This document shows, in pieces, positions 29,962 to 64,000 of a stretch of DNA of 64,000 nucleotides. Every line of letters starts with the position of its first letter. Position 1 is the first letter of the stretch. The position numbers and the translations under genes were made by a program. Source of the DNA: Luidia sarsii (Eukaryota > Echinodermata > Asteroidea > Paxillosida > Luidiidae); assembly GCA_949987565.1 (NCBI GenBank), contig OX465103.1:25785725-25849724 (forward strand), read 5' to 3'. Below the pieces are notes generated by a model. That model saw only the letters and a program-made list of their open reading frames with translations. It did not search any database and was not told the DNA's origin.

Positions 29962-29965
29962 TTAC

Positions 29966-31047: not shown

Positions 31048-31116
31048 AGTCGGATCGCGAGCCGGTGATGACAGACGTTCAGAGCTTTACTGCGCTGAGA
31101 ATGATGAAGCTGGGCC

Positions 31117-40139: not shown

Positions 40140-40490
40140 TGGAGCGGTAACCGTTTTCACAGCCACACTTCGTCTCAAAAAGAGATGTGCTGCAGGGTGT
40201 CACCGCAAACCTTCCGCTGGGTACTTCCACCATGGAAACCTTCGAGTCTTATCCCTTTCAGTGAGTTACCGGCTCTTTTCACAGCCACACCCCATCTCAA
40301 AAGAGACGTGCTGCATGGTCACACGGTACACCTTCCGCTTGGTGCTTCCACCATAGAAACCTTCAACTCTTATCCCTTTTAGTGAGTTACAGGCTCTTTT
40401 CACAGCCACACGCATCTCAAAAGAGATGTACTGCATGGTGTCACCTCAAACCTTCTGCTCGGCGCTTCCACCATGCAAACCTCTTATCTG
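40140..40490. repeat. Three tandem units related to the foldback family
   Basis: A unit of about 120 bp (ttttcacagccacac...cttccaccat.gaaaccttc) is repeated three times, and a single unit is present at 56645-56745 downstream of the second P450. It contains the caccgcaaaccttcc arm of the hairpin family. Amplified after or lost since the P450 duplication. Confidence 0.65.
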
Positions 40491-40758
40491 TCCCAACCTT
40501 GTTTGTTGTTAGCCTACATTCATAATCCCCGAAGCCTGCATCTGTCCATGTCTGTGCATTTGGGTGTTTGTTTAATCTGGTTAATTGGTTGGTTGGTTGG
40601 TTTGATCATGGAGGTAGAGGGAATAGAACGACCTTGTCATCAAAGCCTTTCCTCATGTTTCCTCCAGGTCCGACCCTCATCCTCTATCAGGCCGACTGAC
40701 TAAGAGGTTGTAGCATCCATAATTATATACAGTATCTCTGTATCTGCAGCATTATACT

Positions 40759-43700
40759 TCAGTCCCTTGGCTCGGCCTGTAGCCGATACTCTGGCGGGCT
40801 CACCCACAGCCACTGCGACTCCAGCTTGGGCCTGGGGTCTTCATCGGGCAGCTTGAACTTGAACTTCTGGATCAGCGTGATGTAGAAGAGGAAGAACTCC
40901 TTCTGGGAATGCTGCTCGCCGATGCAAGTCCTGCGTCCTGTATCGACGAGAGAACAACAACCACCTAGATATAAAACAAAATACGCCTCTCGCTTGGAGT
41001 CGTATAAAGGTAAACCCTTTTGTCGTCTTAACCACGGCCAGTGACCGAATGAACGAGCGGTACATGGAGCACAATAATGGTACTGGTCGACAGATTGTTG
41101 TCACCATCAATGGTCTACAAAGCGGCAGCTTCTATACAGAGAACCGTCTGCATGGTCGGGTTCGTACTGCATAGGGCTCGGTAGAGTCTGCACCATATTA
41201 TGGCCTATGCTTTGTTTCTGTAGACACATAATGACGTGCTGACCAACTCGTTCATAATGTGAAGGACTGGTTTCCCTATTTTCTCCCACACAAAGTCATG
41301 CAATTACCCTGAAAAGTAGGGCTGCATAAAAAGTAAGATGTTATGCTCATAGTATATACCCACCAGTAGAGTACGGCATGAAGTAGTCTGGTCGAACGAT
41401 GCGGCGTTCCTCGTTGATGAACCTCTCCGGTCTGAACCGCTCGGGGTCGCCCCAGAGCTCCCGATTGAAGTGGACCTCGTAGATGTTGGGTATGACTGTG
41501 GTGTCCTTGGGAATCTTGTAGCCGAGGATGTCCACGTCGGCGGCGGTGAAGTGCGGAACCAGGAGCCAGAAGGTGGTGTCCATGCGCAGGGTCTCCAGGA
41601 TGGTAGCCTCGGTGTAGGGCATCCTCTCCTTGTCTTGCAGCCTGGGCGGACGGTCCCCGATGACGTCTTGGATCTCCTGGTAGACGCCTTCCTGCACCTC
41701 GGGGTGGAGGGCCGTGGCGAGTATCAGGAAGAGGAAGACTGCGGTCGCCGTGTCCCCCTGGTCGGGAATGAAGAAGAAGATCATCCACAGGAGTTTCTCC
41801 TCGTCGAAGTCTCTCAGGTCGCCGTTGGGGTCGCCCTTGGCCATCTCGATCAGGCAGGCGTCAACCATGTCCCGCGGCTGGTCGGGATCCAGAGTGGCCC
41901 GGTGGTGCTCGATGTGCTTGCGGACGAAGTCCATCAGGTCCGAGGTGATTCGCTTGCCTCGCTCCAGGCGCGGGTGGAGACCGAGTTTGTCCAACAGCGG
42001 CAGGAACGGCTCCAGGGGATACAACTTAAAGACCCCCAAGAACCACTGGAGTATCTGGTCCTGAGTTTGAGCGAACTCTTTGTCGTCCTCCTCGTACGTG
42101 GTAGAGAAGATGGCAGAGAAGGTGACGTTCAGGAGGCAGAGACTGGTGGGTAGCGTGGGGTCGAAGGGTTGGCCCTTCCTCTTCTTGATCAGTTCCACCA
42201 AGTGGTTAGCCTCACGATGGATGGCCTCCTCAGCTCCCGACGTACCGTAGCCAAACTGACGGACGGTACGCAGCATGTACTTCTTCTCTCTTTTCCAGGA
42301 ATCGGTGAACGCCTCCAGGAAGATACCTAATGACCGAGATCGAGCAAAGCAGTCACAATTCCACCATTTGTAAGTCTTTCTCAAGACAGAACGTATATTA
42401 TAAACAAAAACATACACATGCTGGAACGGGGGTTGGGATGGTGGGTGCACGTACCAACATTTCTGTGTTTTTTGTTGACGTAGGTAAAGGGCCAGGCACT
42501 GGGACGATCGGACACTACGGCAGAGTTAGCCACGAAGGCTTCCTTGATGGACTTGTAGCTGTTTAGAATGAGCAGGGGCCTGTAGAAAAAAGGGGAACAC
42601 GTCACCTTGAAGAACCACTGGACAGATTTACAAAAGTACATAGGCCCAGACCAAAGTTGCAATGCGAAAAAAACTTTCCAGACGGGTTTCTGAAACCCAC
42701 ACAATGGTGAAAAGGGCTTCTGTTGGACATTTACTTCAATTAGAATCCAAATAATAATAATAATGGCTTTTTCTCTCTCAGATCTATTTTATGATAGATC
42801 GCCAAACACAAGGCCTTACAACTTACAAGGCCACTCGAGGACACTATGAACATCTGAACCGTGAAAATGGGGTGAAAATGTCACTTAGCCGTGAAAAGAA
42901 AATTCACCGCTATTTCATGGCACACAGTTAGCCAAGTCATTTTCAAGGTGTTTTCACCAGTTTCTCCAAGGCCTCATTCCTGGTGGTAAATGGCTACAGG
43001 CAATTTAGAAGTATCTGGGAGTGACAGTTACAAGGACACTATACAGTACCTGTATGGGGGCTGGCGGTCCCTACTGGTAATTGAATTAGCCATCCCCCAA
43101 GGCTGGAGCTTGCCACCCCAGATATACACTTTTTTCTTTAGTGACCTGAAGATGTCCTTATCAGGTCAGAGAGGCGATTATTTTCATTGAGAATTCACTG
43201 TAAAATGCACCTTGAAATCACAGTGACTTTTTAGTTTCACGGCGAAATGACATGTTCACCCCTTTTTCACGGTTTAGATGTTCATAGTGGGAGATGGCTA
43301 CAGTAAAAAAATAAAATAAAAGAGGAACAGACAGATAATATAAAGAAAGACAAGTCAAAGTGATGGAAGAAGAGTCAAAGGGAACGAAGGTATCTATTCA
43401 CGTTCCTCTTGAACAGATCCACTTTGTACGAAGATGGAAAACAGGATGTAGGTAGAGAGTTCCAAAGCGCATAGCAGTACGGGGGAAGAAGCTATTGGAA
43501 CATTTCACAGTACTGCACTTCGGAACAGAAACAGTAAAGGGGTGCGAAGCTGTAGCAAAGCGTGTGCTGCGAGCACCAAAAACCATCAACTCAATTGTTT
43601 GATACGCTTTCTCGTATCATGCATTGTTTGGACCCAATGCATGATGATAGCAAACATTGTGATGCCTGTGGTTATCCAGTGATGCTAAAGTCCGCCGCAC

Positions 43701-46700
43701 ACGAGAGCTATCTGCTGAGCGAAACATTATCTCGAGGTCGTTAGCTCAGCACGTAGCTCACCGTGTGCGCTGAACTTTTGGTGGGATTTCTGCCTCAAGA
43801 GGCCGTGAGAGGAATATATGTCCTGTTTGCCATTTTGGAAACCACGTGAACAGGGCGTGCGTTTCCATTGGCCAGGAGTTTGTTTAAGTTGGCCGGCGCA
43901 CACGGTTAGTGTGTTTTTCACCCGAGGCAGTTAAAATCAGACAGACCACTCTAAACTAATCAAATACCCTTTTTTGTACGAAGAAGTCAAATCTTAAATA
44001 GAAACCCTTCATCACTAGGCCAACAGTGGGTTAATGTGTCCACCAATAAGAAAATACAAACAACAGTTGCAAACTGCTCACTGACTAAAATGACCTGAAA
44101 TACATAAATCCATATGCTGAAGTGCCTGACGTTTCGATCCTAGCAGGATCCTGCTAGGATAGAAAGGTCAGGCCCTCTAGGCTTTTGTAATAATCTTACA
44201 TACTTGTAAAAAAATGTTGCAAACTGCTTACTGACTAAAATTACCAAAATGCAAATCTTAAAATTTAGTGGGCCTGACGTTTCGATCCTAGCAGGACCTT
44301 TCTCAAAGACAGAGTGACAAGGACAACACAGATACATGTACCTTCCTTCGTGTACATGTATCTGTGCTGTCCTTGTCACTCTGCCTTTGAGAAAGGTCCT
44401 GCTAGGATCGAAACGTCAGGCCCACTAAATTTTAAGATACTTTAGACCACTGTAAACCATCCTTGGACTTCATTGTTGTATTCTAAACATCTGACTCTAC
44501 TAAGTTTCAAAAGCATGCTGCATATAGTCTCTGCTGAACTCAGCTATAGTCCAGTGTGCACTGCAGTTAAACATTAGCTTCAGATGATCAACAAAATCAA
44601 ATTTATATCTCTCACTTTAAAACAGATTTTCATTTAGTGTCATGGTGTGTGATTCGTATTTCATTTCTATTCATCATGTGCATTAATTAATGTACATTAT
44701 TCACAGGCGTGAATAATGTACATTATTCGTTAATAATAATAATGTTCATCATTCACGACACTTGTTTACACCTGTAAATGTGCACAATGTACTTTACATG
44801 GACATGTATGCACAATGTTAGTAAAAAATACATGTACATTTCAAGCGTAATAATTAAATTCCTGTACATCATGTGTACAATGTAATATCATAGAGCGATG
44901 TAATGTTCATGTACATGTACTGAAGGCCTACATGCACATGTATCCTCCAATAACCGGTTTTCGACGATATAAGGACTTTTCTTCAAACTGAACAATGTGG
45001 ACGAAAGTTTCACACTAAAAGAGGTCCCAGTCACTTTCTCCACACCACAGACTATTAGAATAATCATAGAGAAGGTTGATCAAGCCTGTCACTTCCGTAA
45101 GATTACCCGGTTTTGTTGACGTCCGCGGCGCACCGCGCAGCAAGCATCGTCACCTATTTTCGTCAGTGGTGTTTAGTAAGGTGTCCCAGTGCAGCCAAAC
45201 GCAAAATAAATTCTTAAAATAACTCAAAATGCTGTGTGGCACTGTAAAATTCTTCCCTGTATGTTTTTTTGTGTTCATCTTTGTTTTTGTTTTTCCACAC
45301 TGCTTCTAACACTTTCTTCAAATCATTCATAATTTATGCTTAAAACGTATTGGTCTGGTTGATGTCTTCTTTTGTGACGTTTAAAAAAAACTCCACAATC
45401 CTCTTTCTCGCTGCTTCTTCAGTTATGACCTTTCCCAATGTCACTCCAGAGACACATTTCCTCCTTCTTGGTACTTTCTCTAGCTGCCCTTTTATTTTTT
45501 TCATTTTTTTAAAAAGGCTATTGGGCCATGTTACTTTTTGTCTTGAAATAATAATAAAAATTAAATTTAAAAAAATATATAAGCGAGACGCCCTATAGGA
45601 TGCTCCATAGTTTTTACCCTGAACGGACTGCCTCAAGTTGCGTGATATATTTTTTTTCTACGGATGTTGGGGTTTGTTATGGTACACTAAGATTTCTTTT
45701 AGGACCAACAATAAAGAAAACTGGAGCTTCGAAGCAACTGCCAATTTTGTACCTAGGAAAATAGACCCCAAAAGAGCAACTTTTTTAATAACACGAGTTT
45801 GGCCTACTGGAAAAGCCTTAAATTTCCACATTTTCGGTGACGGACAAGAGCAGGAAACCAACTGTAAGATACGAAGTCTGAGATCGTTATACGGAGTTGT
45901 TTTCATAGTGCGATGTGAGTTAGAAGGCTAAGCGTCGAAAACGTGTAGCGTCGAAAACGGGGGTTCCCACGATACATGTCATGTACAGTACATGTACATG
46001 TCATGTACAGTACATGTACATGTACATGCTTGCTGTACAGTATTGTGTACTTGTAAAGTGCATGTGTCATGCTTACATCAGACATGAAGGAGGGAAATTT
46101 CACCAGCACTATGCAAATACATGTACCCATGCATGTACATGTACATGTACTTTCCTCTCTATGCGTGTACTGTACGCGCACAGTCAATACACTACACCCG
46201 CGTCAGCCCTCACAGATGGTTAGTTCGTTGACCTCCATGCATGGTTGGCCGGCCCAACTGTGGGGGCATTATCTGCATAAGCGCGCCCTTCATCGGGCTA
46301 GCACCGGATGTTGTCACTCACGTTGGTCGCCCTTTGATCGCCCTCGCGGGATCCAGTGTAAACGCAGTCCTCCATGGTCTAATCGCCTAATACCTCCTTG
46401 GTCTAACCATGGAGGGTCTAACCAGTGAGCTTGCGTCATGAGATAGAGATTTCCACAGTCAATGCTAGCTATAGTAATATTACTAATAACATGGCATGTA
46501 CATGCATGTAGGCCTAATACACACTGTACTAGTATTACTATTACTTAGTAATTATGCCAGTATGCAGTATCTATATTACTATATTATTACTACATTACAC
46601 TACAGTAAGCCTACGCTTCACGTTTCCCTGTTACCATGGAGGAAGTACTTATTCCTCCATGCTGTTACCAACATGGAGGGCAAGCCGGAATTACCACAGT

Positions 46701-47167
46701 GCTCCCTTCCTCATACATGTATTTATTGTATTACGATCGTTTAGGGGTTCAACTTCACGGCGACGGACAGAACCTGCAGCTGAACCCGCCTGCTTTTGGG
46801 TCATATTCCCCAGCCAATATAGATGCCATCTAAATGCGTACGCGCCTGCAGCGGGCCATACCTTTCCAATTTCCAGTCCGTGCATAATGCATACTACTCA
46901 CTTTCCAGCGGTCATGGTCAGCGTGAACATATCGGGGTGGTACTTCTTGCCCAGACGGGTGATGTTCTCGCTGGTCTGGCCAGACTCGGGGCTGATCAGG
47001 AGCACGTTGCCCAGAAAGGGCCAGCCCCAGGGGCCGGGGGGCCAGCTGTACTTTCGCCAGCGGGCCAGTCGTCGGTACACCAGAGCGGCCAGCAGGAACG
47101 CGGCCAGCAGGACGAGGCCAGGCGACCAGGTCAGCTCCATTTCGCTCAGGGAGTCCACGAAGGCCAT
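40759..47167 (-). CDS. Cytochrome P450, CYP2-clan-like, copy 1 (four exons, complete)
   Basis: Haem monooxygenase anchored in the endoplasmic reticulum; substrate unknown. Exons down the minus strand: 47167-46902, 42579-42455, 42326-41364 and 40937-40759, all GT-AG, giving 511 codons (510 aa), normal for a microsomal P450. An N-terminal membrane anchor (about residues 16-31) is followed by basic residues and the proline hinge WPPGPWGWPFLGN (42-54). Other marks are the I-helix segment with GDT at 321-323, ExxR as E375-T-L-R378, the DPERFRPERF meander, and the haem loop YSTGRRTCIGE with the ligand Cys456. The haem loop is split by intron 3. The I-helix has Asp-Gln where Ala-Gly is usual, and Tyr449 replaces the usual haem-loop Phe; both changes are also in copy 2. 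Intron 1 is 4.3 kb and holds transposon copy B. ATG 47167 is preferred because the anchor follows it directly. Confidence 0.93.
44257..44436. repeat. 180-bp palindrome of the 'GATCGAAACGTCAGG' repeat
   Basis: Two head-to-head copies of the dispersed repeat (cttaaaatttagtgggcctg... and its inverse) meet at about 44346. Single copies occur near 23725, 29215, 33046 and 44120. Located in intron 1 of the first P450. Confidence 0.75.
44957..45958 (-). mobile_element. Inverted-repeat DNA element, GTTTTCGACG ends, copy B
   Basis: An inverted and internally deleted relative of 37451-38900. The doubled 10-mer cgtcgaaaac is at 45933-45942 and 45949-45958; the single end is at 44957-44966. It lies in intron 1 of the first P450, and no counterpart appears in intron 1 of the second P450. 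Confidence 0.7.
45970..46160. repeat. tacatgtacatg microsatellite
   Basis: Interrupted runs of catgtacatgtacagtacatg. The same motif is scattered through the window (for example 22440-22460, 26220-26250 and 52210-52260). Confidence 0.7.
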
Positions 47168-47462
47168 TGCTGGTCGTTTGTGTGTAGGTATCGGTGTGGT
47201 GTGCTTAGTGCCAACTTCTCGTGGGCATGATAGGGGATTGCACTGCGCGCGATGCGGTACGTGAACTTGTTGTCCTTGTTTTGAGATCGGCAAAGCTTGT
47301 ATTGGTGACGATCACTGAACCGTCTGAATGTGACCTCCATGGTATCACGCCAATGCTTGTGTATTGAGAGCCGCTGCAAACATTTATTTCTTAAGCGACG
47401 ATCCAATTTAGAAGTTATTTTAGATCTTCATTAGAAGTCATTAACAGATATAATATATGATT

Positions 47463-47545
47463 CAGAGGTGGGTATGGGTGGGTGGGTGGGTATGGGGGTG
47501 GGTGGGTATGGGCGGGTGGGTGGGTATGGGGGTGGGTGGGTATAT
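47463..47545. repeat. GGGTGGGTATGG tandem repeat
   Basis: G-rich units upstream of P450 copy 1 and about 230 bp outside the left end of the RAG1-like element. A larger, related GGGTGGGTGTGTATG array lies just outside the right end. Potential G-quadruplex former. Confidence 0.75.
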
Positions 47546-47771
47546 ATGCGCTAGTGTAGGGTGGGTTGTGGGGCACCAGAACAAGATGTGTACTCAGAAC
47601 AATGGGACCGCTCCTTGTGGGGTACATTTTTGGTACCCCATAAGGTTTTCACGAAACTGGTTATTTGGAATTAACTCAAAAAGGAGGAATTTTCGAGGTA
47701 TGTTTATCCGTCGCAAACAGAACTATATTATAATTATAAGGGACGTTCGCTAGAGATGTCAGCCTAGGAAA

Positions 47772-47786
47772 CACGGCCGTTTCAGA
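47772..47786. repeat. Left terminal inverted repeat of the RAG1-like element
   Basis: CACGGCCGTTTCAGA, preceded by the target duplication GAAA (47768-47771). Confidence 0.9.
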
Positions 47787-48307
47787 GCCATTGCCATAAC
47801 GTAAACAAAGATTCTCTGTTTGGTTGTTCACATTTTTCTTAACTCCAATTATGACGCACAACAAGAATCCAAGATGGCGGACCGTGGCTCGATTTGTGTC
47901 ACGGAAAACGCCACGAAAAACCTCAAATTCCCTAACCATTGAAACATTTTCCATTGAGATTTTGGCGGATTCATGTAAAAACGACAAAATTCCTTAACTG
48001 TAATGTTTCACTTTGTTGTTTTGGGACCAGATTATTTATTAAAAGGCCAAAATTCGGTCCGTTTACGTGAATGATTGTTCGCGTAACATCGCACCGCGAT
48101 CGAATCGCTTTGTTGTGTAAAATCATTGTTTGTCAAGTTTGTTTGGCAGGGTGAACAGAAAAGATGGAAGAAATACACGCATATGTTTCAGTAATGGCTG
48201 TATCGGGAAGTCGGCAGCTCTATTTTTAATGTTAGAGGTGATAAAACTTGGGGTAGTTTGGCCGCCCCTTGAACGGCGTACGCCATTTCGTCTGCGCGAT
48301 GTGCGAA

Positions 48308-48459
48308 GCACGTACTACACGTAAAAATAACTGTGTTAGCACAATCAACAAAGCGTGTATAAACCGTGCGTATGCAAAAGGCCATTAGAACGCGTAGCTC
48401 GTGGTATGCAATTTGTATTGCGCTGTGTGATGCACGTACTACACGTTAAAATAACTCTG
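48308..48459. repeat. Direct repeat in the 5' leader of the element
   Basis: A 28-bp sequence starting gcacgtactacacgt occurs at 48308-48335 and, with two changes, at 48432-48459, a spacing of 124 bp. It lies between the left end and the transposase ATG, so it could be a promoter element or a subterminal protein-binding site. Function unknown. Confidence 0.55.
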
Positions 48460-48600
48460 CGGGCAAACACAAGAACGTATAGTTCGTTGTGCGTGGCGCG
48501 AAAGTTAAATGTTTGTTTACTAATAATAGGCCTACATCATACATGTAGGCGTAACGCGCTATGACGGATGCAGGGCCAAGAATTCCTTTGATGCTTTGAA

Positions 48601-51600
48601 ATGGAAAATCACCTGAGAATTTTAGCCCAATTGTGTCGTGTTTGTGGAAGGAGACTTCAAACTGCACAACAGATTAAAGCTGCCAAGGGAAGTACAAAAC
48701 CTGTCAAATGTTATGACTTTGTCAAGGAAATTTATGCAGCATTTAACATTGCAATATGGGACGATGAATCAGAGGTGCATCCGACACACGTTTGCTACAA
48801 ATGTTCTAGAGCACTTCAGTACACTGGTAAAAGGGACAGAAATGTAGAATCATCTCACGAGTCTGCAATAAATGTATGCAAGATAGAATGGCAGAAACAT
48901 CCTAGAACTGGACCATGCAAAGTATGTGAAGCGTACAGGAATCAGACGAAAGGTGGACATCCTCCTCAGCGTAAGAGGCCTGGAAGAGTAGCGGGTCACC
49001 ATGGTGATATGTCGGGTAACCTTCCTTCATGTTTGGAGAATGTCGAGAACATGTTCGACACTGGCGGTGAATTTCTGGAAGTGAACCCCTTATTGCAGAT
49101 ATGTGGCAAGTCCCCTGAAGAGGAGGCACTGTTTGTTTGTCCCATCTGTCTGTGTATTTTGGGATCTCCAACTGTTCAGACCATGTGTGAACATAGCTTC
49201 TGTGCTAAATGCCTTACTAAGTGGTTTCAGCATAAATCAAGTGCACAAGTTCCTTGCCCCGTGTGTCGAGAACCAATTAATTTTCGGGAGATCACCCCAT
49301 GCTCGCGGATGCTCCGAGTTCAGTTGTGCTCGCTGATCACAGCATGTACAAAGTGTGGCACAATGGGAAAACTAAGTCAGATGGCTCAACATCAGTGCCC
49401 AGCTAAACCAGCCATTTGCCACTGCCAGTTATGCCCCCCTTCCCGAAGCCCATCCCCTACAAGCCCCTCTCCCAAACCCAAGTCTGAAGTATCCAGGGCT
49501 ACCACAATTCTAAAACAAGTGGCATCCAACCATGTCAAGGGTACACCTATCCCCCCTGAAATTGAAGCTGTGACCGATCACTGGACATGGCTCAAGCTTC
49601 AGAATGCAAGCAATCCCAAGCTTAGGACACCAGGAAGGGTACGTAAACATCAATTAAAATATAAAACTATATATATTTTTTACAACTTTAAGAAAACACA
49701 GCACATTCAGAAAGTTTGCCTTCATAACAGTTTATTTCTGTAATTCAAAAATCGTACAATACCTTCCAAACTGTTTGAAAACAAAGTGACATTTTAATTG
49801 CACTCAACAAGCAGCCTTGTTTATCCCTCAACCATATTTGTATCAAAATAATGCCAAAATATTTGCTATGATTGCTAATTTTTTGTAGTACATCGGGTTT
49901 TGTCCTCCATCGATGTGAATTAACAATGTATACTTGTGCACTACCGCCCAAGTGATAGATGGAATGATCACTCATGTGACTCAAACCCATGACTTCCTGC
50001 TTACTAGTGAAGTCGTGAGTTCGAGTCCCCCCCCCCACACACACACACAGTGATCTTTCCATCTTTCACTTGGGTGGTAACACACTAAGTAAAAGTGTTA
50101 ATTCATGTTAGTGGAGGGCAAAACCAATTATTGATGGATATCACCCTGATGCAAAACATGCATTATTATGAATTGCTGATTTTTGTTTTAGCCTACCACA
50201 ATACAAACTGCCCGGCAAACGTCAGCTGCAACACAATCAGAAAAGCCCACACCTTGCAAGAGTCAAGAATTGACTGCAGATCGTTCTCTGGCCATGATGA
50301 GAGACTGCCAGTTTGCCTGGGAGCAACTACGTAAACTTCGAAGGTAACACTAAATTTTAAATTTATTAATGCATTTTCCTTGTATACATGTAAGCAGAAA
50401 GACATAAACAAGACCAAGCTTACATGTATATGAAACAGAGTGGGCTTATTCTGTATGTATTCCAAAAGATGCATATAATTTACATTTACAGGTACCTGGG
50501 AACACTTGGTGTCACAATGGCTTCTGAACGAAAAATGAGAAAGCGACAAAGCGACCTACTGCAGGATAATCTGGAGGGTTCTCTTGAGCCGATGCTGTTT
50601 CCCTCAAACAAAGCAAGTGGAACTCATGGCTTTGAAACTAGAGATGTTCCATATGTGCAAGTCAAGAATTTGTCTGCAATGATTGTGGATTACCTGGATA
50701 AGCATGAGTTGTAAGTACTGAACATGTAGAGGATTCCTATACTAGAATACATGTACAACCATATGTACATGTGCTATGTACACATGTAAACGGATGATTG
50801 TCATTCTTTGTAATTGTCAGTATTGAGTGTAGCCCATTTTTTGTTATTCCTCAGGCTGGGATCTCTGACGTGGCATGGGGGAGTCATTCCAGATGATGAA
50901 ATCTGGTTGAAATTTGGTGGTGACAAGGGAGGGAACTCTTTCAAGTTTTCCTTCCAAATCGTCAATACTTCTCATCCAAATTCCCTCATGAATACTGTGG
51001 TCATTGCCTGCTTTGAAGCCCCAGATTCTAGTGCAAACCTGCAGCTACTTGCCCCCATCTTAGATCAGATATCAGCCATTCAGCAGAGCCTTACATGGAG
51101 GTAAATCATATTTGCTTTAATTTATACATATATGCATGTCATGTACATGTATGCATGCCATGTACATTTACTCATCACATGTACATGTGTGTTACCTATG
51201 TATGAAAAATTGATTTTTTTTAATCTCTAATAGACAGAAGAAAATACGCCTTTTCGCATTTGGAGACTATGAGCTTTTGACCAAATTGTACGGAATTTGC
51301 AGTTGCAATGGTAAGTTACAGTTACTTTACCTTAATAAGTAAAATCACTGCAAATGCCAGTTTGGGAGTACTGATTTTTGCTTTGCACTTTTTTTTTAAA
51401 CAGCTCGTTACTGTTGTCTGTACTGTCACACGACCAAGCAGCAAATGCAGATCCCCACTGAAGAGAAAGAGATCTCAGTCCAGTCCCGAACACTACAGAC
51501 ATTGGCTAATGATTACCTCCGGTATGTGGAAGATGGATCCCACAAGAGCCATGCGAAGGACATCTCCCATAGCGTCATTGCTAAGTCTATGATGCCTATT

Positions 51601-53384
51601 CAGATAAGTCATGTGCGTACTATATATGAACTTTGTATCCAAAACTTCCTCATAGCCGTGAGCACTTTCTTTAAAACAAAGTGTTGCAATATCACAATAT
51701 TTCAAATGAATGACTTTCTGAATCCTACATGTATATACAGTACATGTACAGTTTGTACTTCCTGTGACATGTTGGTTTCTTTTGCATGTACATGTATGTA
51801 ATATAGGTTGTTCTGCCAACCCTCCATATGTCCCTTGGGATATACAAGAAATTGTTTGACCTGTTTGAGAGTAGATGCCATGCAATTGATCTGAAGCTCT
51901 ACAAACTACGTGTACAATACACGGATCAGGATGACATGCTTCAGGAGACTTCTAACTTTGACGAGAAAGTTGCTGCTGAGTGTGTACGCCAACACAAGCT
52001 TGACAAGGAAAAAGCTGAAAAGGAGCAGGAGCTTGAACAGCTGGAAGAGGAATTACCTCTTCGAGTGCTTCAGCACCTTAATGTTTCCAAGTCAGCGTTT
52101 CAGGGAATGGCCAACAGGGCATTTGTGCTTCGACTTCAACTCCAGGAAATGGTAATTTATTTCATGAAATAAGGGTAATTTTGTTTCCTGTGTATATTTT
52201 CTTGCATGTGCCTTACATGTACTGTACATGTATATGCACATACATGTACATGTACAAATTAACACTCATACATGTATATTCACCATGTCTTGTTTCTTGC
52301 TGTTTCATCATGTTCATTCAGGAAACTCAAGCAATTGATCTTCCGTATGGCACCGGCCCAATAGCTGGCTGCTTAGACAAAGCCCTTCAAAAGCACCACG
52401 TACAAAGACAAGCTTATCATGGGAAGGCTTTCGTGGGTAATCATGTACACAAGTGTTGCCAGGTAACTTGATTTGTTCTGAAGCTATGAATTTCTGAATA
52501 TCTGCGTCAGGGCGATGTTCATCAATAATGGTATTGCCCTATACTGCCTTGATATAGAATCCTTAGTCATGACATGGGTTTCTATGTTCAACTTACCCTT
52601 TATTTGCATTCAGGTCCAAGTCATCACTGACCTTACCTCTGCACCATCAGAACTACTACGCAACCTGCCATGTGATACTCTCCCACTGGGACGCCATAAA
52701 GCTTTGGTCGAAGAGACGGTAGCGATTGGTAGATTATTTCGCGACATCTTTTTGAAGTTTGCAGCTGTCCATTCTGCACTCAACCATAGCAGAGCTGTCA
52801 GACCAGCTGACCTGGATCACACTGGTAGGAACCATAATAAACCATTACCGCTGTCTGCTATAGAACAATATATAAATTTATTAGAGTATTGGACAACTGG
52901 TCAAGTGAGGGCAGTAGAGCTGCGGTGTATCTTCTTTGTTCTATTTGGGGTTACCTATTGTGACTTCACGTCAAGAACAAAGAAGATAACATCGCAGCTC
53001 TACTTCCCTCACTTGGCCAGTTGTCCAATACTCTAATAAATTTAATGTTCCAAACATGAATTGTCCTTGGCAGATGAGTGCATCAAAGAGTTCATGGCAA
53101 CATATAGAAGGAGCTTGCCAGGAGAGTCCATCACTCCCAAGATGCATCTCCTTGAGAACCACGCCATGGAGCAGCTTCGCACATTTGGAGTTGGGTTTGG
53201 CCTGTTAAATGAGCAAGGGGGTGAGCTGGTCCATACGGAGTTCAACCGGACAGGCCGGGTTGTCCATGGCATGAAGAATGATGTGCAGCGCCTCCTGACC
53301 ACCATGAGAAGACATCACACCAGTACTCTTCCTCAAATTCAGGGTCAAATTATCTGCAAAGTAAAAAGGAAACAAGAAGAGTGA
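48601..53384 (+). CDS. RAG1L: RAG1-like transposase, 982 aa, ten exons, intact
   Basis: Exons: 48601-49638, 50192-50343, 50492-50710, 50855-51100, 51234-51310, 51404-51612, 51807-52151, 52322-52462, 52614-52824 and 53074-53384. All are GT-AG and the joined frame is 983 codons with no break. An in-frame TGA at 48589-48591 fixes ATG 48601 as the first possible start. N-terminal part: C12xxC15 and C65xxC68 with HPTHVC, then EWQKHP...CKVC (C106xxC109), as in the RAG1 N-terminus; a C3HC4 RING (C180, C183, C196, H198, C201, C204, C219, C222); then a CxxC...HxC finger (249-266). Core: D493 in FGGDKGG, D563 in FGDYELL, zinc pair C582xxC585, H904-x4-H909, and E930 (or E926) in NEQGGELVH. These correspond to RAG1 D600, D708, CxxC 727/730, H937/H942 and E962. 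Predicted to cut and join its own element ends, and possibly to act as a ubiquitin ligase. A charged heptad-like stretch (KEKAEKEQELEQLEEELP) lies in exon 7. Codon use is AT-leaning, unlike neighbouring host exons. Confidence 0.92.
52874..53043. repeat. 170-bp hairpin in the last intron of the RAG1-like gene
   Basis: Arms aaatttattagagtattgga... and its inverse are nearly exact for about 70 bp. It lies wholly within intron 9 (52825-53073) and does not disturb either splice site. Probably a foldback MITE inserted in the transposon, or an intronic structure. Confidence 0.8.
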
Positions 53385-53555
53385 AAAAGAGTTGGCAAAA
53401 ATGTACATGTATGTAAATAATAAGGTGGCCAAGGAGATTTTCTGTGCAGTGTTCATGCACATGCATTGATATGCCCTGTACTGACATGTCTCAGAAAAAA
53501 AAAATCGATTAACATATCTTTGGCTTGACTTTCACTGGTACAGGCGTGTGCTTGA

Positions 53556-53561
53556 AATAAA
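53556..53561 (+). terminator. Polyadenylation signal of the RAG1-like gene
   Basis: AATAAA lies 172 bases past the stop codon, with T-rich sequence following at about 53578-53605. It is the first such hexamer downstream of the stop, so the transcript probably ends here, inside the element. Confidence 0.55.
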
Positions 53562-55287
53562 TGCTGTATATATTAATCACTTTTACGTATTTCTATCTTT
53601 CTTCACACCTTGCCACGCCATTCAGTGATTTTCTGCCATTCCTTCTGGGTGTTCACTTATTCCATTTTTTTATAAATGAATCTTCTAATTTCCAATACTT
53701 GGCCTATTAATCATTTTAAGCAGCGAAACAGATGACTTAGTAGTGCAATTATGTATGAAGAGCAGTAGGCACATCTGGCCGGTTAAAAAAAGAATAGCCA
53801 AACATGCCTACATAAAGTACATGTACTAACAAATTTTCCATGTACAGTCATGTATATTAATAGTAATTGTCAATTTTAATTATTTGCATTTTTTAAATGT
53901 TTTGGTGCATGATCTACATGTAGATGATGTGATGTTTATGCACACGTGTTAACGTGCATGATAGTGACCAGCTCCCTAATGTGACTGCTACTTCGCTACA
54001 ATGTATTCTGTTGTAAGTGGCAAAATTAAGAACATGGAGACTATACAGTCATACACATTACAGGTCTAGAGGGGTTCTAAATCATACATGTGTACACATG
54101 GCATTGTTGGAAAACCTTTCTCCGTTTCTCATCATGTTCACTTTTGCTTCATAAATTTTAAAATCAACTCGTCGGCATAAATTAATACTTGCTCGCTAAG
54201 ACCTGCGGGATAAATGTTGCAACCTGACGCCACTTTCTAAACCAAATTCCCAAGTTTGTCACTTTTATCTTGTCTTTCATATAGTATACTTGCATGTGAG
54301 TACTGTTTGGAGTTTGTGGGGGGCAAAACTCGGTCAACGTTGTGCATTTGTCAATGTGTGGACGCCATGTTTTGGATGTACACAGTCATGACAGTGACAA
54401 TGGTGTGTGCAAGTGAAGGATATGATGATTTATGAACTTTGAGGAACCTTTTCAGTGTCCGATGTTAGTTTCTTACACATGTGTAGAGTAGACCTACTGT
54501 TGATACATGCATGTTTATTGTAGGGAACACTGAATTTAGTTGTTGCCCAATTTCCGGACACCGCTATGTATACAAATGACCGAAAAAAATTGGTCATAAA
54601 ATTTGTACAACGTGATTTGTGAAAGTGCTAGGCCTAACAATGTTTCCATGTTGTTTAACAAAGTAGCTTTGGTAACACAACAAAGAAACTCAAGTGGCTG
54701 TCTGGTCGGAATGCGCAAACACCGTGTGCATGCATTGATGTATCATGTACTAGGCTAGCTAGGCCTACTGTACGTGTATACGTACGTAAATGTGTGTACG
54801 ACCCGCAGCGAGAGTGTGCACGGAGTTGAAATAAACACACCGAACAAAACTGTTTTTCTCGTAAGAAAATGCTGGCGACTTCTTAAAAATCTCTTATAAT
54901 ACAGACAAAGACCATAATGATTACCGGTTAAAACCAAATCAGCCAAATAACTTACCTTCGTTGCAAACAATCCCGATAATTTACATCCATTTGTCGACGC
55001 TCGGTTTACAGCAACGTGGCCCGTCACATGGTTGCACAACCCGAGAATCCAAGTATGACAGGTCATTAATATTCATAAGCAAGTCCGAAATAAACGTAAA
55101 GAATATATAAACAACTTAATGTTTTTCTTATTTGCATTTTTATTCTCCACCAATGAAATAGTTGCATTTTGGTCATCGATATGCATATTCCAAGTTGACA
55201 AAATTCACTCTGCAAAGGGCGCCCTCGCTCGTCGGGAAAATTTACACTGGCACCAATTGAACACTGAGGGCGCGCAGATTTAACGCG
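53562..55287. other. 3' non-coding part of the RAG1-like element
   Basis: AT-rich, with tacatgta motifs. Minus-strand open frames (54755-55066 and 55066-55377, the latter crossing the element end) have no kelch, PHD or other recognisable motif. I see no RAG2-like partner gene. Confidence 0.6.
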
Positions 55288-55302
55288 TCTGAAACGGCCG
55301 TG
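55288..55302. repeat. Right terminal inverted repeat of the RAG1-like element
   Basis: TCTGAAACGGCCGTG, the exact inverse of the left end, followed by the target duplication GAAA (55303-55306). Confidence 0.9.
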
Positions 55303-55408
55303 GAAAGTGATTCTGGTTCGAAAGGGAGCGATTTGAATTAGGCTTTTCTGGGAGTGTTTTTTAGTGCACGAGAACAAAGGAAATACCCCACAAGTATACG
55401 CGTGTAAG

Positions 55409-55720
55409 GGTGTGTGGGCGGGTGGGTGTGTATGTGGTGGGTGGTTGGGTTATGGGCGGACGGGCGGGTGGGTATTGGGTGGGTGGGTGGTGGATATGGG
55501 CGGGTGGGTGTGTATGTGGTGGGTGGTTGGGTTATGGGCGGACGGGCGGGTGGGTATTGGGTGGGTGGGTGGTGGATATGGGCGGGTGGGTGTGTATGGG
55601 GGGGTGGGTGTGTATGTGGTGGGTGGTTGGGTTATGGGCGGACGGGCGGGTGGGTATTGGGTGGGTGGTGGTGGATATGGGCGGGTGGGTGTGTATGGGG
55701 GGGGGGTGGGTATGTGCGGG
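55409..55720. repeat. Higher-order G-rich minisatellite
   Basis: Units such as gggcgggtgggtgtgtatg and ggttgggttatgggcggacg are arranged in larger repeats of about 110 bp, three times over. Valine/glycine/tryptophan-rich frames are open in all three plus-strand frames, a sign of repeat structure, not of a gene. Strong quadruplex potential. Confidence 0.85.
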
Positions 55721-56530: not shown

Positions 56531-57012
56531 GCATTATGAATGGATCTCAAACATCACGGTATATATGTGCTTTGTATGACTTCTGCCGTGTTTTATAAAC
56601 ACCCTTGGTTGGTGAAAACAGCCAGTAACTCAAGAGTTACCTGGAGAGGTAACTCTTTTCACAGTCTTAAAAAGAGATGTGCTGCATAGTGTAACCGGTA
56701 ACCTTCCGGTCGGTGCTTCCACCATGGAAACCTTCAACTCCTATCTGTCCCGAGCTTGTTTGTTGTTTGTCTATTTCTAATACAGAAGCTTGCGTCTGTG
56801 CATTTGGATGTTTGTTTACTCTGGTTGGCTCAAAATTGAACGGCCCTTTTTCTTTTACTTTCAACTGTAATTGTCATCAAAGCCCTTTCCCCATGTTTCC
56901 CCGTGTTTCCCCATGTTTCCTCCAACCCCACCCTCTATCAGGCTGTCTGACGAACACTAGAGGTTGACCGTCAAATAGAGTATAGCATCCATTACCAGTT
57001 TAGCATTATAAT

Positions 57013-60000
57013 TCAGTCCCTTGGCTCGGCCTGCAGGCGATACTGGGGCGGGTACACCCACAGCCACTGCGACTCCAGCTTGGGCCTAGGGTCTCCGTCG
57101 GGCAGCTTGAACTTGAACTTCTGGATCAGCGTGATGTAGAAGAGGAAGAACTCCTTCTGGGACTGCTGCTCGCCGATGCAAGTCCTGCGCCCTGTATCGA
57201 CGAAAGAACAATAAGAACCAGATATCAATCGCAAGACGCCTCTCACCTGAAGTCGAAGATTCCTCCAAGAATGACATGTCCATGCAGCGGACCCGGCCAG
57301 CAGATAATATGTGAGAGCGCCTAATAAGGCAATGAGACCAGGGAAACCTTTAAAAACTTTCTTAAGTCATTAACATTATATTTAATGTTCATTGATTATC
57401 AGGTCACATTCTACCCTTTCTATTTTTTTTCTTTCTGCTTGACCGTTCTCTTTGATGTGCGTCTTGAGCAGCTGTTTGATTTTGGCACAATAATTGGCAA
57501 ATCTGCATCCACTTTGTGTAATCCCAGAGCTACTGTATATAGCCAGGTTTACAACAAATGGTTGTTTGCATCTGAATGAAAGCGGGGTTGTGATCCCTGG
57601 AGATATATATATATACGGCAGTTAATGGTTGAATTGCTTCTGACTGGCGCCCCCACCCCGGCAAAGACTAGTTGACTATTAGGGAAGGCTGCCATCTATA
57701 AGGGCTGGATAGCTCAGATGGTATTATAATACTAAGAGCACCAGGTTCAAGTCCCGGTCCAGTCCAATTTTTCTTTGCCAATTTTTCAATTTGTTCAAAA
57801 GTAGATTTCCAATTTTAAGTTTTTCCTTTTTGTTTGGCAATAAAAATCTCATGCATTATGAAAGACCAATTGGCGGACAACCGATTACCCGATTTCGCAG
57901 AGATCCGCCGTCAACGAATCCATCCGCCGTCACATTGGAGGCCATACCGTATAGATAAACCCATTTTTGTCGTCTAACCACGGCTATAGTGACCAAAATG
58001 TCCAAGTGGTACACGGAACACAATTGTGACCCGGCACAGCATAATGAGAAATAACCTCACTTTTGAGATTTTGAGCTTTTCTAATGATGTGAAAGAGTAT
58101 ACCATTAGCTTTCAAATGATATCAAAATATAATATCCTCTAATACTTAGAATTTCCGAAAATAAAAACAAAAGAAAATTGATTTGTATTCGAATTGTGAA
58201 GATACTTTAACTTCAGGCGTTGTTTACTCAAAAAGTGTTTTGGTGGGACATTCCTCATGTCGTTGTGCCGGGTCACAATTGGTAGACCGATATGCTGTCA
58301 TGCAGCACATCAACGGTCCCCCAAAACGGTAGCTCCCACACAGAGCCGTCTGGTCGGATTCGTACTGGGTCTTGGAAGATATAATTATGGACTTTTAATT
58401 GTCTGCACCATTATGGCCTATGCTTTGTTTCTGTAGCCGCACAGTGACGTGCTCACCAACTCGGGAGGGACTGGTTTCCCTAGTTTCTCCCACACAAAGT
58501 CATGCAATCACTGTACATATGTATAGACATCACCTTGGAAAGTAGGGCTACATACCAGTGGAGTACGGCATGAAGTAGTCCGGTCGCACGATGCGGCGTT
58601 CCTCGTTGATGAACCTCTCCGGTCTGAACCGCTCGGGATCGCCCCAGAGCTCCCGATTGGAGTGGACCTCGTAGATGTTGGGTATGACTGTGGTGTCCTT
58701 GGGAATCTTGTAGCCGAGGATGTCCACGTCGGCGGCGGTGAAGTGCGGAACCAGGAGCCAGAAGGTGGTGTCCATGCGCAGGGTCTCCAGGATGGTAGCC
58801 TCGGTGTAGGGCATCCTCTCCTTGTCCTGCAGCCTGGGCGGACGGTCCCCGATGACGTCTTGGATCTCCTGGTAGACGCCTTCCTGCACCTCGGGGTGGA
58901 GGGCCGTGGCGAGCATCAGGAAGAGGAAGACTGCGGTCGCCGTGTCCCCCTGGTCGGGAATGAAGAAGAAGATCATCCACAGGAGTTTCTCCTCGTCGAA
59001 GTCTCTCAGGTCGCCGCTGGGGTCGCCCTTGGCCATCTCGATCAGGCAGGCGTCAACCATGTCCCGCGGCTGGTCGGGGTCCAGAGTGGCCCGGTGGTGC
59101 TCGACGTGCTTGCGGACGAAGTCTATCAGCTCCGAGGTGATTCGCTTGCCTAGCTCCATGCGTGGGTGGAGCCCGAGTTTGTCCAACAGCGGCAGGAACG
59201 GCTCCAGGGGAAACAGCTTGAAGATCTCCACGTACCACTGGAGTATCTGGTCCTGAGTTTGAGCGAACTCTTTGTCGTCCTCCTCGTACGTGGTAGAGAA
59301 GATGGCAGAGAAGGTGACGTTCAGGAGGCAGAGACTGATGGGTAGCGTGGGGTCGAAGGGTTGGCCCTTCCTCTTCTTGATCAGTTCCACCAAGTGGTTA
59401 GCCTCACGATGGATGGCCTCCTCAGCTCCTGACGTACCGTAGCCAAACTGACGGACGGTGCGCATCATGTACTTCTTCTCTCTTTTCCAGGAATCGGTGA
59501 ACGCCTCCAGGAAGACACCTAAAGCGACCGAGATTGAGCAAACCAGTCATCATTCCACCATCTAGTCTTTAGTCTTCCTAATTCTAGAACGTATTAAAGA
59601 AAACACATTATTTAAGTCCTTCTCTCACTCACTTCTCACATTATGTAGCCTAGCTTTCTCTCCTTAGATACACCCATCCTTTTCAAGTAACTTTCGTCAT
59701 CTCTTCTATTCAATATTGTTTATTTACAGTTTCATCGCTGCTTTCGTTTTGTCTTGATTATCCGGTCTGAGTCGTATTGTTTGTCTTGTGTCACCTTGTC
59801 TGTTTGCTCTTGTATTTATGTCTAATTGTCTGTAAAGGCTGTTCTCTACAAGCCTTGGCTTATATGAATAGCCCCATACTTTCACACCTTCGTTCATTTT
59901 AAGTCCTTTATATATTCACATTTGCTAGTTATCACTTATTGCTATCACTTAGTGTTATTTTTTATCATATGGATATCATATATCATATAAATTATATATT

Positions 60001-62264
60001 ATGATTCACTTGATCTACTTTGATTTGCATGTTTGTGGGAAGTATAGAAATAAATGTTTCCTGAATTGAATTGAATTGAACTTTAACTTTCTAATTTAAT
60101 TGAACTTTAACTTTCTGATGGGACGGGGGTTGGTGGGTACACGACTACACGTACCGACATTTCTGTGATTTCTGTTGACGTAGGTAAAGGGCCAGACACT
60201 GGGACGATCGGACATCCGAGTAGAGTTATCCACGAAGGCTTCCTTGATGGACTTGTAGCTGTTTAGAATGAGCATGGGCCTGTTGGTAATAGGGAGACAC
60301 ATCACCTTGAAGACCTACTGGACAGATTTATCCAAAAATGCGTAGCTGATTTCGAGAAATGGCAAAGAAAACGTTTACTGCATGGACGGCGGGACTTATA
60401 TGCAGTGACGAGACTTCTGGTTTTGCTACCAGCGCTCTAACCATCTGAGTTATCTAGCCCTTAGATGGCAGCCTTCCCAAAGAGTCAACTGACTGAGCCT
60501 ATAGTTGACTATTTGTCAACTAGTCTAAGCCGAGTTGACTATTTGTCTAAGCTTTGGTCAACTAGTCTAAGCCGAGTTGACCAAATACATGTAGTCAACT
60601 ATAGTCTAAGCCTAGTTGACCAAAATAGTCAACTAGTCAAAGCCTATAGACTGTTTGGGTTCAAGTCCCAGTCCAGACAAGGGTTTTCTTTGCCATTTTT
60701 TTTTCAAAATCATAAATGAACAAATAACTGAAAGAACGGTGAGGGAATCGGGGGAGGTTACGTTAGTTAGTGTGCCACTACTTTCAGGATATCACCCACA
60801 TCCACAGCCACAGCCACAGCCAACAGAGCAGCAGTGCATTTTCTCTGCTGAGCGGCCTTTGAAGAAAGCGATCCAGACTGAGATTGATGTGATGTCCATG
60901 AGGTATTTGACTTGATAGTAGATTACTGCAATATCTACCCAGTCCTTTGATTTTGTTTTAAAAATAAAAACTGATGTGCCTGTAGACACTACTGAGTCGT
61001 TAACACATGTAAATTACAGTGTACAAGGGAACTACGACTTTCTGTGTGAGCATGACCTTCCCAAATAGTCAACTAGTCTTGATTACCCGCGATTACTCGG
61101 CTTCAAGTCCGGCGTCACACACACGTCACCAAATATCATTCATTATTTTATTAAGAAAAACAAATCCGGCAAGTGGTTGTGCCAGACAATGCTGTTGTTT
61201 ACATACCGGTGTAGGTATTAGACTGAAATGCTTCCGCGGGATTGAGTGGTGTAACTAACCAGTGAGCTCGCGTACAGAGGACAAGCTTTCCGTCCTTATA
61301 GATATAACATAATGTTTGCGTCGAGGAGAATGTAATAAGATAGTCGCGTAAGTAATAAATGTTAACACGGCTCTCCATACTCTTTTGTGTTGCAAATATT
61401 GTATAGAAGCCATTATACATGAACTTGTGTATGTGTGTATAGGCCTATGACGCATTATACAATCCCCTCGCATAATATAATTATGTACACGACGCGCTAT
61501 AGGCCTACTGCAATAATAATTATTCGAATCCACCACACGACCTCGTGCGACCAGGTGGGTGGTCAAGTGGTTAAGACGCCGCCTGCACTAGAAAGTGGGA
61601 GCTTCCTGAATTGTTTTCATCAGGCATCGGGCAAAGCACTGTGAACACTCAGTGCTTATTACGTCCAGCAGGGCAAAGCCTCGTCGAAGGCTTCTGTTAA
61701 ATTTTCCCAGTCAAAGTAAAATGTATGCCAGTACATAGGGCTTCAGTATATACAGTATACGCTTCACATTTCCCTATGTACAACGTACAACATGGAGGGC
61801 AGGATATACTAACCCCTGTACTTCCTCCCTCATAATGATTACAATCATGTATAGAGGCGAAACTGCGAGGCAAACTGCAGCTAAACCTGCCTGCCATGCT
61901 GTTGGGTCGTATCCCCCAGCCTATGGCGCCTGTGGTACGCGGGACTACGATTGCAGTCCGGCGTGCATAATCATGACCATACTCACTTCCCGCCAGTCGA
62001 AGTCAGCGTGAACATATCGGGGTGGTACTTCTTGCCCAGACGGGTGATGTTCTCGTTGGTCTGGCCAGACTCCGGGCTTATCAGGAGCACGTTGCCCAGA
62101 AAGGGCCAGCCCCAGGGGCCGGGGGGCCAGCTGTACTTTCGCCAGCGGGCCAGTCGTCGGTACACCAGAGCGGCCAGCAGGAACGCGGCCAGCAGGACGA
62201 GGCCAGCCGACCAGGTCAGCTCCATTTCGCTCAGGGAGACTACGACATAGTCTGCGTAGGCCAT
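57013..62264 (-). CDS. Cytochrome P450, CYP2-clan-like, copy 2 (four exons, complete)
   Basis: Paralog of the gene at 40759-47167, in the same orientation. Exons: 62264-61987, 60279-60155, 59518-58556 and 57191-57013; 515 codons (514 aa). Exons 2, 3 and 4 have exactly the same lengths and intron phases as copy 1; exon 1 is 12 bp longer, giving MAYADYVVVS where copy 1 has MAFVDS. Anchor, WPPGPWGWPFLGN hinge, DQGDT I-helix, ETLR and YSTGRRTCIGE haem loop are all kept. I count 16 differences in the 321 residues of exon 3, over half of them within copy-1 residues about 225-270, which include substrate-contact regions in CYP2 proteins (family knowledge). Both copies appear functional. Intron 3 carries a MITE (58027-58277) and a SINE (57650-57840) not present at the corresponding place in copy 1. 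Confidence 0.93.
57650..57840 (+). mobile_element. tRNA-derived SINE, family 1
   Basis: Head ggctggatagctcagatggt, box B ggttcaagtcccggtcc, tail aatttttctttgccaatttt. The preceding ccccggcaaagactagttga also precedes the copy at 25640. Inside intron 3 of P450 copy 2. Confidence 0.65.
58027..58277. mobile_element. MITE, GTGACCCGGCAC family, in P450 copy 2 intron 3
   Basis: 251 bp with inverted ends GTGACCCGGCAC, flanked by AATT on both sides. The matching place in P450 copy 1 (near 41070) reads cacaataatggtactgg without the element, so insertion came after the gene duplication. Confidence 0.82.
60370..60720. mobile_element. Cluster of SINE family 1 parts and TAGTCAACT repeats
   Basis: A minus-strand head (box A in ctaaccatctgagttatcta) lies at 60370-60465. 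Then come tandem copies of agtcaactagtctaagccga up to 60650, then a plus-strand box B and tail (ttcaagtcccagtcc...ttttctttgcca). Looks like nested or rearranged copies. Located in intron 1 of P450 copy 2, ending just above exon 2. Confidence 0.5.
61535..61690 (+). mobile_element. tRNA-derived SINE, family 2
   Basis: Reads gaccaggtgggtggtcaagt ggttaagacgccgcc...gtgggagcttcc, then catcaggcatcgggcaaagc actgtgaacactcagtgctt. Same family as 17925-18070. In intron 1 of P450 copy 2. Confidence 0.58.
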
Positions 62265-64000
62265 TGCTCGCTGGTCGTTTGTGTGGTGTGCCAGTGCAGT
62301 GCGCACCGACGTATGGTGGGCATGCTAGGGGCACGGACCTATGCGTTAGGCCATGGAGGAATAAAAACATTCCTCCATTGTTAGACTGTGTATGGTGACC
62401 TACGCGATTCGGATCGATTCATCTTTTGATCTCGGTTTGGAGACCTTTGTCAGGGGTATTCAAGACAATACATGAGTATGGAGAGCCGTTTCAACATGTA
62501 TTACTTTTGCGACGATCTTATATTAAGATATAGACGAGATATGTATCTCTAATGTAGAGGTGGGTGTTCGTGGATGGGTAGGTATGCCGCATGTGCAGCT
62601 CGATCCTCAACGTGAACAGGCTTTTCAACGTCAGCCTCCCCTAGCTGCCTAAACAAATAAATTGTCGGACAGTGTGGACCAAGCCCGCTCGCTGTGCAGC
62701 ACGGGTACTATACCTGACCAAAGCATTGGAGGACTTGAAAATATATCGGTGGTTGGTGATTGCAGCGTTATTACTACTAAGTACTAGACTGTTTGGCCAA
62801 CCTCCCGAATCCGGACTTGGGGATAATGTAAGTAGTTTTGTAGGTCAAACAAAGATCGATCTGGTCACGCTAGTTCAGTAAAAAGTACATGTAGTATTCA
62901 ACTAATATAATACCAGGTACAACATCAAGCTGACAGTGACACTGTGGCACGGGGAGGAATATACCGTGGCCATAGCGGCGCGGCGGCTGCCCTACTTACT
63001 GGGGTTAGACAACCACTGGATACATTCTTCTTCAAAATAATCTTCAAACTCAAGGGGATTTGATAACCTATTAGTCATTTTTATAGTCAAAGAAGGAAGA
63101 AGGGGAAAACAAGGAATGATGACTGAATGTTCCAAACAGGTCTTGCGGGGCTGAACATTATATTTTATTGGAGCAGACCCCGGCCCTTGGTTCTATGAAG
63201 ACATCTACAATGTAGGATATAATACGGACGAAACTCGGACGAAAATTATTTGAGGCCTTTACGTATGAAGCCTGTGTGTAGTTTTTCACAAGATTTAAAT
63301 GAGTCCCATGGGACTCAAAAGCTTAGCCAGAGGAAATAGCGCTCTTCTATTAGACTCGTATACGGAAAGCTATTATTTCTTCGCTGGTTGCACTGCATGT
63401 CCTGTATCGTACCGTTAGCTTTATGGCCATTGTGTGGGGAACCAGTTCGCTGTGCCGGTGTCACGATCTCACACGGGCTCCGAGTGCTGAGTTGGGCCGT
63501 GACGTCACTGGCTCGCTTTAGAACGTTGCAGCAACGTTCTCAGCTGCTCAGCGTGCTAAGATGAGTCAGTGAACCAAGCACGTGGGGGCGCCCTTCATGT
63601 GAATGTTATTTATGATTTTCCGCGAACAAACACAGGCTAGGCCTAGGTGTCAACGAAGAACGAACGTGCCTGAAAGCGCTGCATTGCCAATGGCCGTATC
63701 GACTCAGCACGGCCTTCAAAATGGACAACTACCATATGAATTGCTCATGGTAATATGGCAACGGTCTCGTTTGAGCATGGGACCCGGATCAGACCACACC
63801 GGGAACAATTTGCGCCCATTGAAATCGTACTTGAAGGTCCCTGGCACTCTAACCATGGGTACTCTAACCATAACTAATGTATTGCGCCCTCAATCCCGAG
63901 CACAGGCCATCTGCCGCCTGGCTAGGGCGCCCCCTGTCGTCTTGAATGACACGCGCTCTGTACTCGCACTATCCCAGTGAGTGACTCGTGTAGGAAATTG
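62265..64000. other. 5' flank of P450 copy 2 and unassigned sequence
   Basis: Up to about 62590 the text is homologous to the flank of copy 1 (47168-47560), including tggtcgtttgtgtg, gagagccg and the final gaggtgggt. This is the upstream edge of the duplication and holds the shared promoter region. Beyond it I see nothing recognisable; an open frame at 63603-63980 has no domain features. Confidence 0.45.

Follow-up and report, generated by a model that had tools for sequence, protein, structure and literature searches.

Antibody genes are cut by RAG1, which in vertebrates is a fixed host recombinase that requires RAG2. The origin of its N-terminal half and of its RING finger is still argued, one account invoking a fusion of two transposons (PMC8355894) and another an old Chapaev/Transib ancestor that already held all the parts (PMC4411706). 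EnSpm, Mirage, Chapaev, Transib and RAG1 have been united in a 2025 account on the basis of C(2)C and H(3-4)H motifs, mostly CA..TG ends and 2-5 bp duplications (PMC12730594). The duplications of Chapaev elements are described as generally 3-4 bp long, their ends as CAC..GTG and their transposases as bearing C(2)C, LH and H(4)H motifs, while the Chapaev3 elements examined in the same source combine 3-bp TWA duplications with CAC ends and the same three motifs (PMC4079192). In 2015, Kapitonov and Koonin reported two Chapaev subgroups in which a RING finger follows a RAG1-like “Chapa” domain (PMC4411706). For RAG-like/ProtoRAG elements, 5-bp duplications are said to occur “almost always” or “invariably,” a RAG2-like gene forms part of the complete RAG-like ones, the protostome end consensus is given as CACTWMCAAACKTYKBB, and echinoderm RAG1L proteins are described as being without the RING region (PMC7204232); a 5-bp duplication is likewise called “typical of Transibs,” and the identity of TransibSU to RAG1 is put at >30% (PMC4411706). 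The N-RAG-TP of Aplysia, finally, is a transposon-borne sequence described as RAG1 N-terminal-like in its entirety (Panchin and Moroz, 2008, as cited in PMC8355894 and PMC2996935). Here we describe an element of about 7.5 kb, at positions 47772-55302 of a 64,000-nt stretch (the window) of the sea star Luidia sarsii, which published descriptions and domain and motif matches allow us to read with good confidence as a single-gene DNA transposon, most likely a RING-bearing Chapaev, with exact 15-bp ends, a 4-bp duplication and an open frame of 982 residues.

The terminal inverted repeats of the element are identical at 15 of 15 positions, and the 4-bp repeat GAAA stands directly outside both of them (Table 1). 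A sequence-only reading of the window had reported a complete RAG1-like transposon with matched ends, a target duplication and one intact gene, and in these respects the description of a complete-looking single element holds. Exact 15-bp inverted pairs spaced 0.5-20 kb apart are no rarity in the real window (439), which is rich in repeats, and 22 of them have a 4-bp direct repeat outside; the pair that bounds the element is the sole CAC-starting one among these 22, the remaining 21 having been counted without individual inspection. By comparison, 40 dinucleotide shuffles gave a mean of 1.1 exact 15-bp inverted pairs, and in no case did a 4-bp repeat flank such a pair. Past the 15 bp, the left and right ends share no similarity exceeding that of shuffled sequence, and the end sequence CACGGCCGTTTCAGA has no third match in the 64-kb window with up to 3 mismatches tolerated. 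No kelch or PHD match indicative of a RAG2-like gene was found in 10 of the open reading frames (ORFs) within or overlapping the non-coding ends, a scan that a multi-exon gene could escape. Two of the three ORFs of the 5′ region were matchless, the third matching HEV_ORF1 (E 0.042), and a single match, to Fijivirus_P9-2 (E 0.013), arose among the seven of the 3′ region; both lie below the cut-offs and are read as chance. A tRNA scan and an NCBIfam scan each found nothing.

The gene between these ends is predicted to comprise 10 exons, with GT..AG at every internal border, and its 2949 nt make up 982 codons with 0 internal stops, whereas reading the spliced sequence in its two alternative frames meets 33 and 70 stops; the unbroken ten-exon frame announced by the earlier reading is thus confirmed at this level. 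A protein search recovered 5 relatives at E ≤ 0.001 among 3922 candidates. The closest full-length ones are two uncharacterized DUF1280 proteins from Asterias amurensis, P0001 (45% identity over 100% of the query) and P0002 (44% over 99%), which have the same domain order, although they form separate families by sequence; proteins of Amphiura filiformis, Antedon mediterranea and Strongylocentrotus purpuratus align at lower coverage or identity. A second, alignment-based search again returned 5, namely P0001, P0002, two N-truncated Asterias forms and P0008, which is 53% identical and ends only a few residues beyond the end of exon 1 of the window gene. Viral contigs were also considered and set aside, their 60 pattern-matching stretches containing 0 relatives.

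The N-terminal region of the predicted protein resembles that of RAG1. Its first 144 residues, scanned alone, match the Pfam model RAG1_imp_bd with 29.2 bits (cut-off 23.3), and a match to this model at E ≤ 1 occurs in all five N-terminal fragments (the window and four relatives); the cysteine pairs C12/C15, C65/C68 and C106/C109 do not vary among the five. When the N-terminal profile, without the RING, is compared with the PDB, RAG1 chains come out on top (21wb_A, E 6e-9; 6oem_A and 9jpu_A, 5.4e-7) and the first match after them has an E-value of 0.19 (16 listed); alignment with the mouse RAG1 fragment by hhalign gives a probability of 97.3% with 30% identity over 97 columns. The RING finger, at residues 180-223, scores 32.8 bits against Pfam zf-RING_2 (cut-off 27.3). 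Homology is thus shown for the N-terminal region and for the RING finger.

The catalytic half tells of another transposase family. Pfam DUF1280 (PF06918) matches residues 372-546 with 59.6 bits (cut-off 25) and is found in 6 of 6 aligned proteins; it was assigned to the Chapaev transposase in a 2014 survey (PMC3985635). D493, D563, C582/C585, H654 of the LH motif (L653-H654), H904/H909, E926 and E930 are invariant in all six sequences. In the profile alignment, D563 falls on mouse RAG1 D708 and C582/C585 on C727/C730, with a spacing of 19 residues in both; taken by itself, this stretch falls short of significance (i-Evalue 61 for zebrafish and 4000 for mouse), and the strongest match of the profile to RAG1 in the PDB stops at profile position 245-300 of 973. 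Pfam includes a RAG1-core model, to which the whole-protein scan gave no match at E ≤ 1. A Foldseek search with the structure model of P0001 nevertheless returned RAG1, BbRAGL and HzTransib as best fold matches, with 13-16% identity in the structural alignments to RAG1, and the matches on mouse RAG1 mostly start at residue 458-461 (one at 426, another at 450). The RAG-type DDE core claimed by the earlier reading stands, then, as the predicted fold of a relative and fails as detectable sequence. The order of N-terminal zinc region, RING and DDE core is that of vertebrate RAG1, as is the spacing from D708 to the C(2)C motif, whereas a counterpart of the nonamer-binding domain was not seen; the N-terminal models are weak (predicted local distance difference test score, pLDDT, under 50 across nearly all of the first 299 residues of P0001), hence this is not evidence of absence.

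The Chapaev traits listed at the outset are all matched in the element: the 4-bp duplication, the CAC..GTG ends, C582/C585, L653-H654 and H904/H909. Since the Chapaev3 branch, alike in its CAC ends and its three motifs, has 3-bp TWA duplications (PMC4079192), GAAA points to the rest of Chapaev. The order of Chapa domain, RING and Chapaev core described for the RING-bearing subgroups (PMC4411706) is found as well, the first domain being judged by homology to the RAG1 N-terminus rather than to a Chapa reference. As such subgroups were already described in 2015, the present element, likened to them by description, is a further and apparently intact member, in this case from a sea star and uninterrupted across ten exons; the literature matches listed contained nothing on sea-star or RING Chapaev beyond PMC4411706. 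It shares with N-RAG-TP a RAG1 N-terminal-like sequence carried on a transposon, yet, set against the descriptions of that element (PMC8355894; PMC2996935), it adds a full core. The traits common to EnSpm, Mirage, Chapaev, Transib and RAG1 explain the RAG fold match without close kinship.

Several observations weigh against this reading. The Chapaev placement draws on published descriptions, domain, motifs and ends, and the splice sites are predicted from GT/AG rules and homology. The RAG1-type N-terminal zinc region named by the earlier reading is upheld by the isolated scan, but a comparison of the entire protein with RAG1_imp_bd yields 19.0 bits, which does not reach the cut-off; used alone, the 144 N-terminal residues of the window protein place the same three RAG1 chains on top with E-values of only 0.0051-0.037, and the structure model of exon 1 (mean pLDDT 44) is too poor for use. 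Compared as a plain sequence with the PDB, the full-length window protein gave RING proteins and no RAG1 among the best 60 of 87 matches. The core model is that of a 45%-identical relative, P0001, and not of the window protein (mean pLDDT 58, predicted template modelling score 0.51), and the whole-chain superpositions are loose (template modelling score by query 0.21-0.37, root mean square deviation 9-16 Å). The catalytic glutamate may be either E926 or E930, because both are invariant in 6 of 6 sequences. Lastly, the 64-kb window holds no second copy of the element, and a paralogous empty site sought there was rejected, as the upstream similarity between the tandem cytochrome P450 copies around the element, which ends in pieces of 64 and 31 bp, fades by about 47494/62586 and does not extend to the insertion at 47771.

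Other explanations differ in the kind of element they propose or in its present state. A domain order as in RAG1, ends that start with CAC, and RAG1, BbRAGL and HzTransib as top fold matches would all suit a RAG-like (ProtoRAG/TransibSU) transposon that had lost its RAG2-like gene, and the sequence-only reading had linked the element to the Transib/ProtoRAG lineage. A placement there is not supported, nor was a RAG2-like partner recognised among the 10 ORFs scanned, and we regard such an origin as most improbable: the duplication is of 4 bp, not 5; DUF1280 is the transposase domain; the 13-16% structural-alignment identity to RAG1 compares with >30% for TransibSU (PMC4411706); and the RING finger is in the region described as missing from echinoderm RAG1L proteins (PMC7204232). 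The ends, too, agree by eye with the protostome RAG-like consensus, the one consensus compared, at 5 of 15 positions (CAC and positions 6 and 7), the AAA at positions 8-10 being missing. The lineage is thereby corrected to, most likely, Chapaev.

Within Chapaev, the perfect ends and the open frame are compatible with a young insertion, and we infer that the element may have been active recently. P0002 represents 20 member sequences in the database, a number that fits a multicopy family in Asterias, although isoforms may inflate it. On the other side, intron 9 contains a hairpin reminiscent of miniature inverted-repeat transposable elements (MITEs) and intron 1 a weaker fold-back (Table 1), and this copy, or an ancestor, may therefore have taken insertions itself. 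The nested hairpin, which suggests that the copy need not be very young, the unbroken ten-exon frame and the absence of another copy from the window could each be accommodated by a Chapaev transposase gene that the host has domesticated and that persists under selection, no longer mobile. Perfect ends and a duplication would, however, be expected to be lost after long domestication, and the 20 members of P0002, subject to the same caveat on isoforms, are as for a multicopy element, so that we hold domestication to be very unlikely. It is unlikely, though less so, that the copy is dead, its gene intact in looks alone because the modelled exons are wrong or its regulation is impaired, a view compatible with the Chapaev reading, which concerns the kind of element: the exon model is predicted and the promoter presumed, and hairpin-like repeats lie in two introns, but 982 codons run without stop or frameshift and all of the listed motif residues are present.

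If the RING-bearing Chapaev is mobile, its transposition would likely be of the cut-and-paste type. A dimer of the transposase would bind both 15-bp ends, and the putative active site formed by D493, D563 and E926 or E930, stabilised by the zinc-binding C(2)C and H(4)H motifs, would cut beside CAC, probably by way of hairpins on the flanking DNA, as with RAG1 and Transib. The freed GTG-3′ ends would be joined to target DNA 4 bp apart, repair leaving the 4-bp duplication. Like that of RAG1, the RING finger may act as a ubiquitin ligase, perhaps on the transposase itself, and the N-terminal zinc domain may serve in nuclear import or partner binding.

The example of this element indicates that a RAG1-like domain order is by itself insufficient for close RAG/Transib kinship. 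Chapaev is a distant cousin of RAG1's own lineage, and the element is useful because it is apparently whole: with the origin of the RAG1 N-terminal half and RING under debate, an apparently intact RING-Chapaev offers a single clone for testing, and with it the questions of whether a RAG2-free transposase of such a shape cuts through hairpins and what the N-terminus and RING contribute to transposition. The RAG1-type N-terminal domain (48601-48870) also shows a sub-cut-off match to zf-AD (ZAD) in 5 of 5 fragments, the first 90 window residues reaching 26.0 bits (cut-off 28), and the mouse RAG1 fragment likewise has one, at 17.8 bits; no zf-AD match was obtained with the whole P0004 protein. A common origin of the RAG1 N-terminus and ZAD is possible from these profile scores, although convergence on CxxC zinc pairs, common to both, could yield the zf-AD score, and the literature matches listed included no RAG1-ZAD link, one of them (PMC9004415) matching solely through its cited references. 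A bolder proposal, unlikely in our estimation, is that all the parts of RAG1, from the N-terminal zinc domain through the RING to the RAG-fold core, reside in one gene of a still-mobile, RAG2-free animal transposon, so that this architecture would predate the RAG1-RAG2 pair, and that the RAG1 N-terminus is related, by descent or common ancestry, to the dimerisation domain ZAD found in zinc-finger proteins of animals. If true, the complete RAG1 architecture would be biochemically testable in a living element.

Table 1. Parts of the Luidia sarsii element, in window coordinates.
Feature	Position	Strand	Remarks
Target site duplication GAAA, left copy	47768..47771	.	4 bp
Left terminal inverted repeat	47772..47786	+	15 bp, CACGGCCGTTTCAGA
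5′ non-coding region	47787..48600	+	3 overlapping ORFs scanned, no second gene recognised
Exon 1	48601..49638	+	Residues 1-346; RAG1-type N-terminal zinc region (~2-119), RING finger (180-223)
Weaker fold-back in intron 1	49896-50125
Exon 2	50192..50343	+	Start of DUF1280 match (residues 372-546)
Exon 3	50492..50710	+
Exon 4	50855..51100	+	Candidate catalytic D493 (GGDKGG)
Exon 5	51234..51310	+	Candidate catalytic D563 (FGDYE)
Exon 6	51404..51612	+	C(2)C zinc motif C582/C585
Exon 7	51807..52151	+	LH motif (H654)
Exon 8	52322..52462	+
Exon 9	52614..52824	+
MITE-like hairpin in intron 9	52873..53044	.	172 bp, near-perfect; arms 56 and 15 nt, 95-100% complementary
Exon 10 with stop	53074..53384	+	H(4)H motif H904/H909; candidate catalytic E926 or E930 (NEQGGE)
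3′ non-coding region	53385..55287	+	7 overlapping ORFs scanned, no second gene recognised
Right terminal inverted repeat	55288..55302	-	15 bp
Target site duplication GAAA, right copy	55303..55306	.

The element lies between tandem cytochrome P450 copies on the minus strand (40064-47184 and 56568-62285), which include one 1.2-kb stretch that is 92.6% identical. The P450 genes that flank it are recognised at 41350-42525 (Pfam p450, E 2e-62) and 58551-59546 (E 8.1e-63), and the best relatives of the right one come from Patiria miniata (75%) and Acanthaster planci (73%), the two species to which all six entries with a species name belong among the 12 proteins at E ≤ 1e-60. The likely first exon of the left gene, picked by eye in the ORF at 46901-47311, which itself has no Pfam match, would start near 47167, and the element therefore likely sits about 0.6 kb upstream. 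Related minisatellites of the TGGG type flank the element at 47467-47543 and 55408-55711, 0.1-0.2 kb beyond its ends. In the left P450 region, an inverted repeat (37432-38919/44938-45977), with blocks of 0.4 and 0.6 kb that are 86-91% identical and about 6 kb apart, may represent a further mobile element or else have arisen by inverted duplication. Elsewhere, the window contains a satellite array of near-identical 63-bp units (27615-28391), a tandem repeat array of 162-bp units (12882-14103), a FLYWCH zinc finger ORF on the minus strand (29965-31086; 33.2 bits, cut-off 23.6) and, also on the minus strand, a likely exon of an N-acylglucosamine 2-epimerase gene (11778-12497; 47.8 bits, cut-off 23.4).

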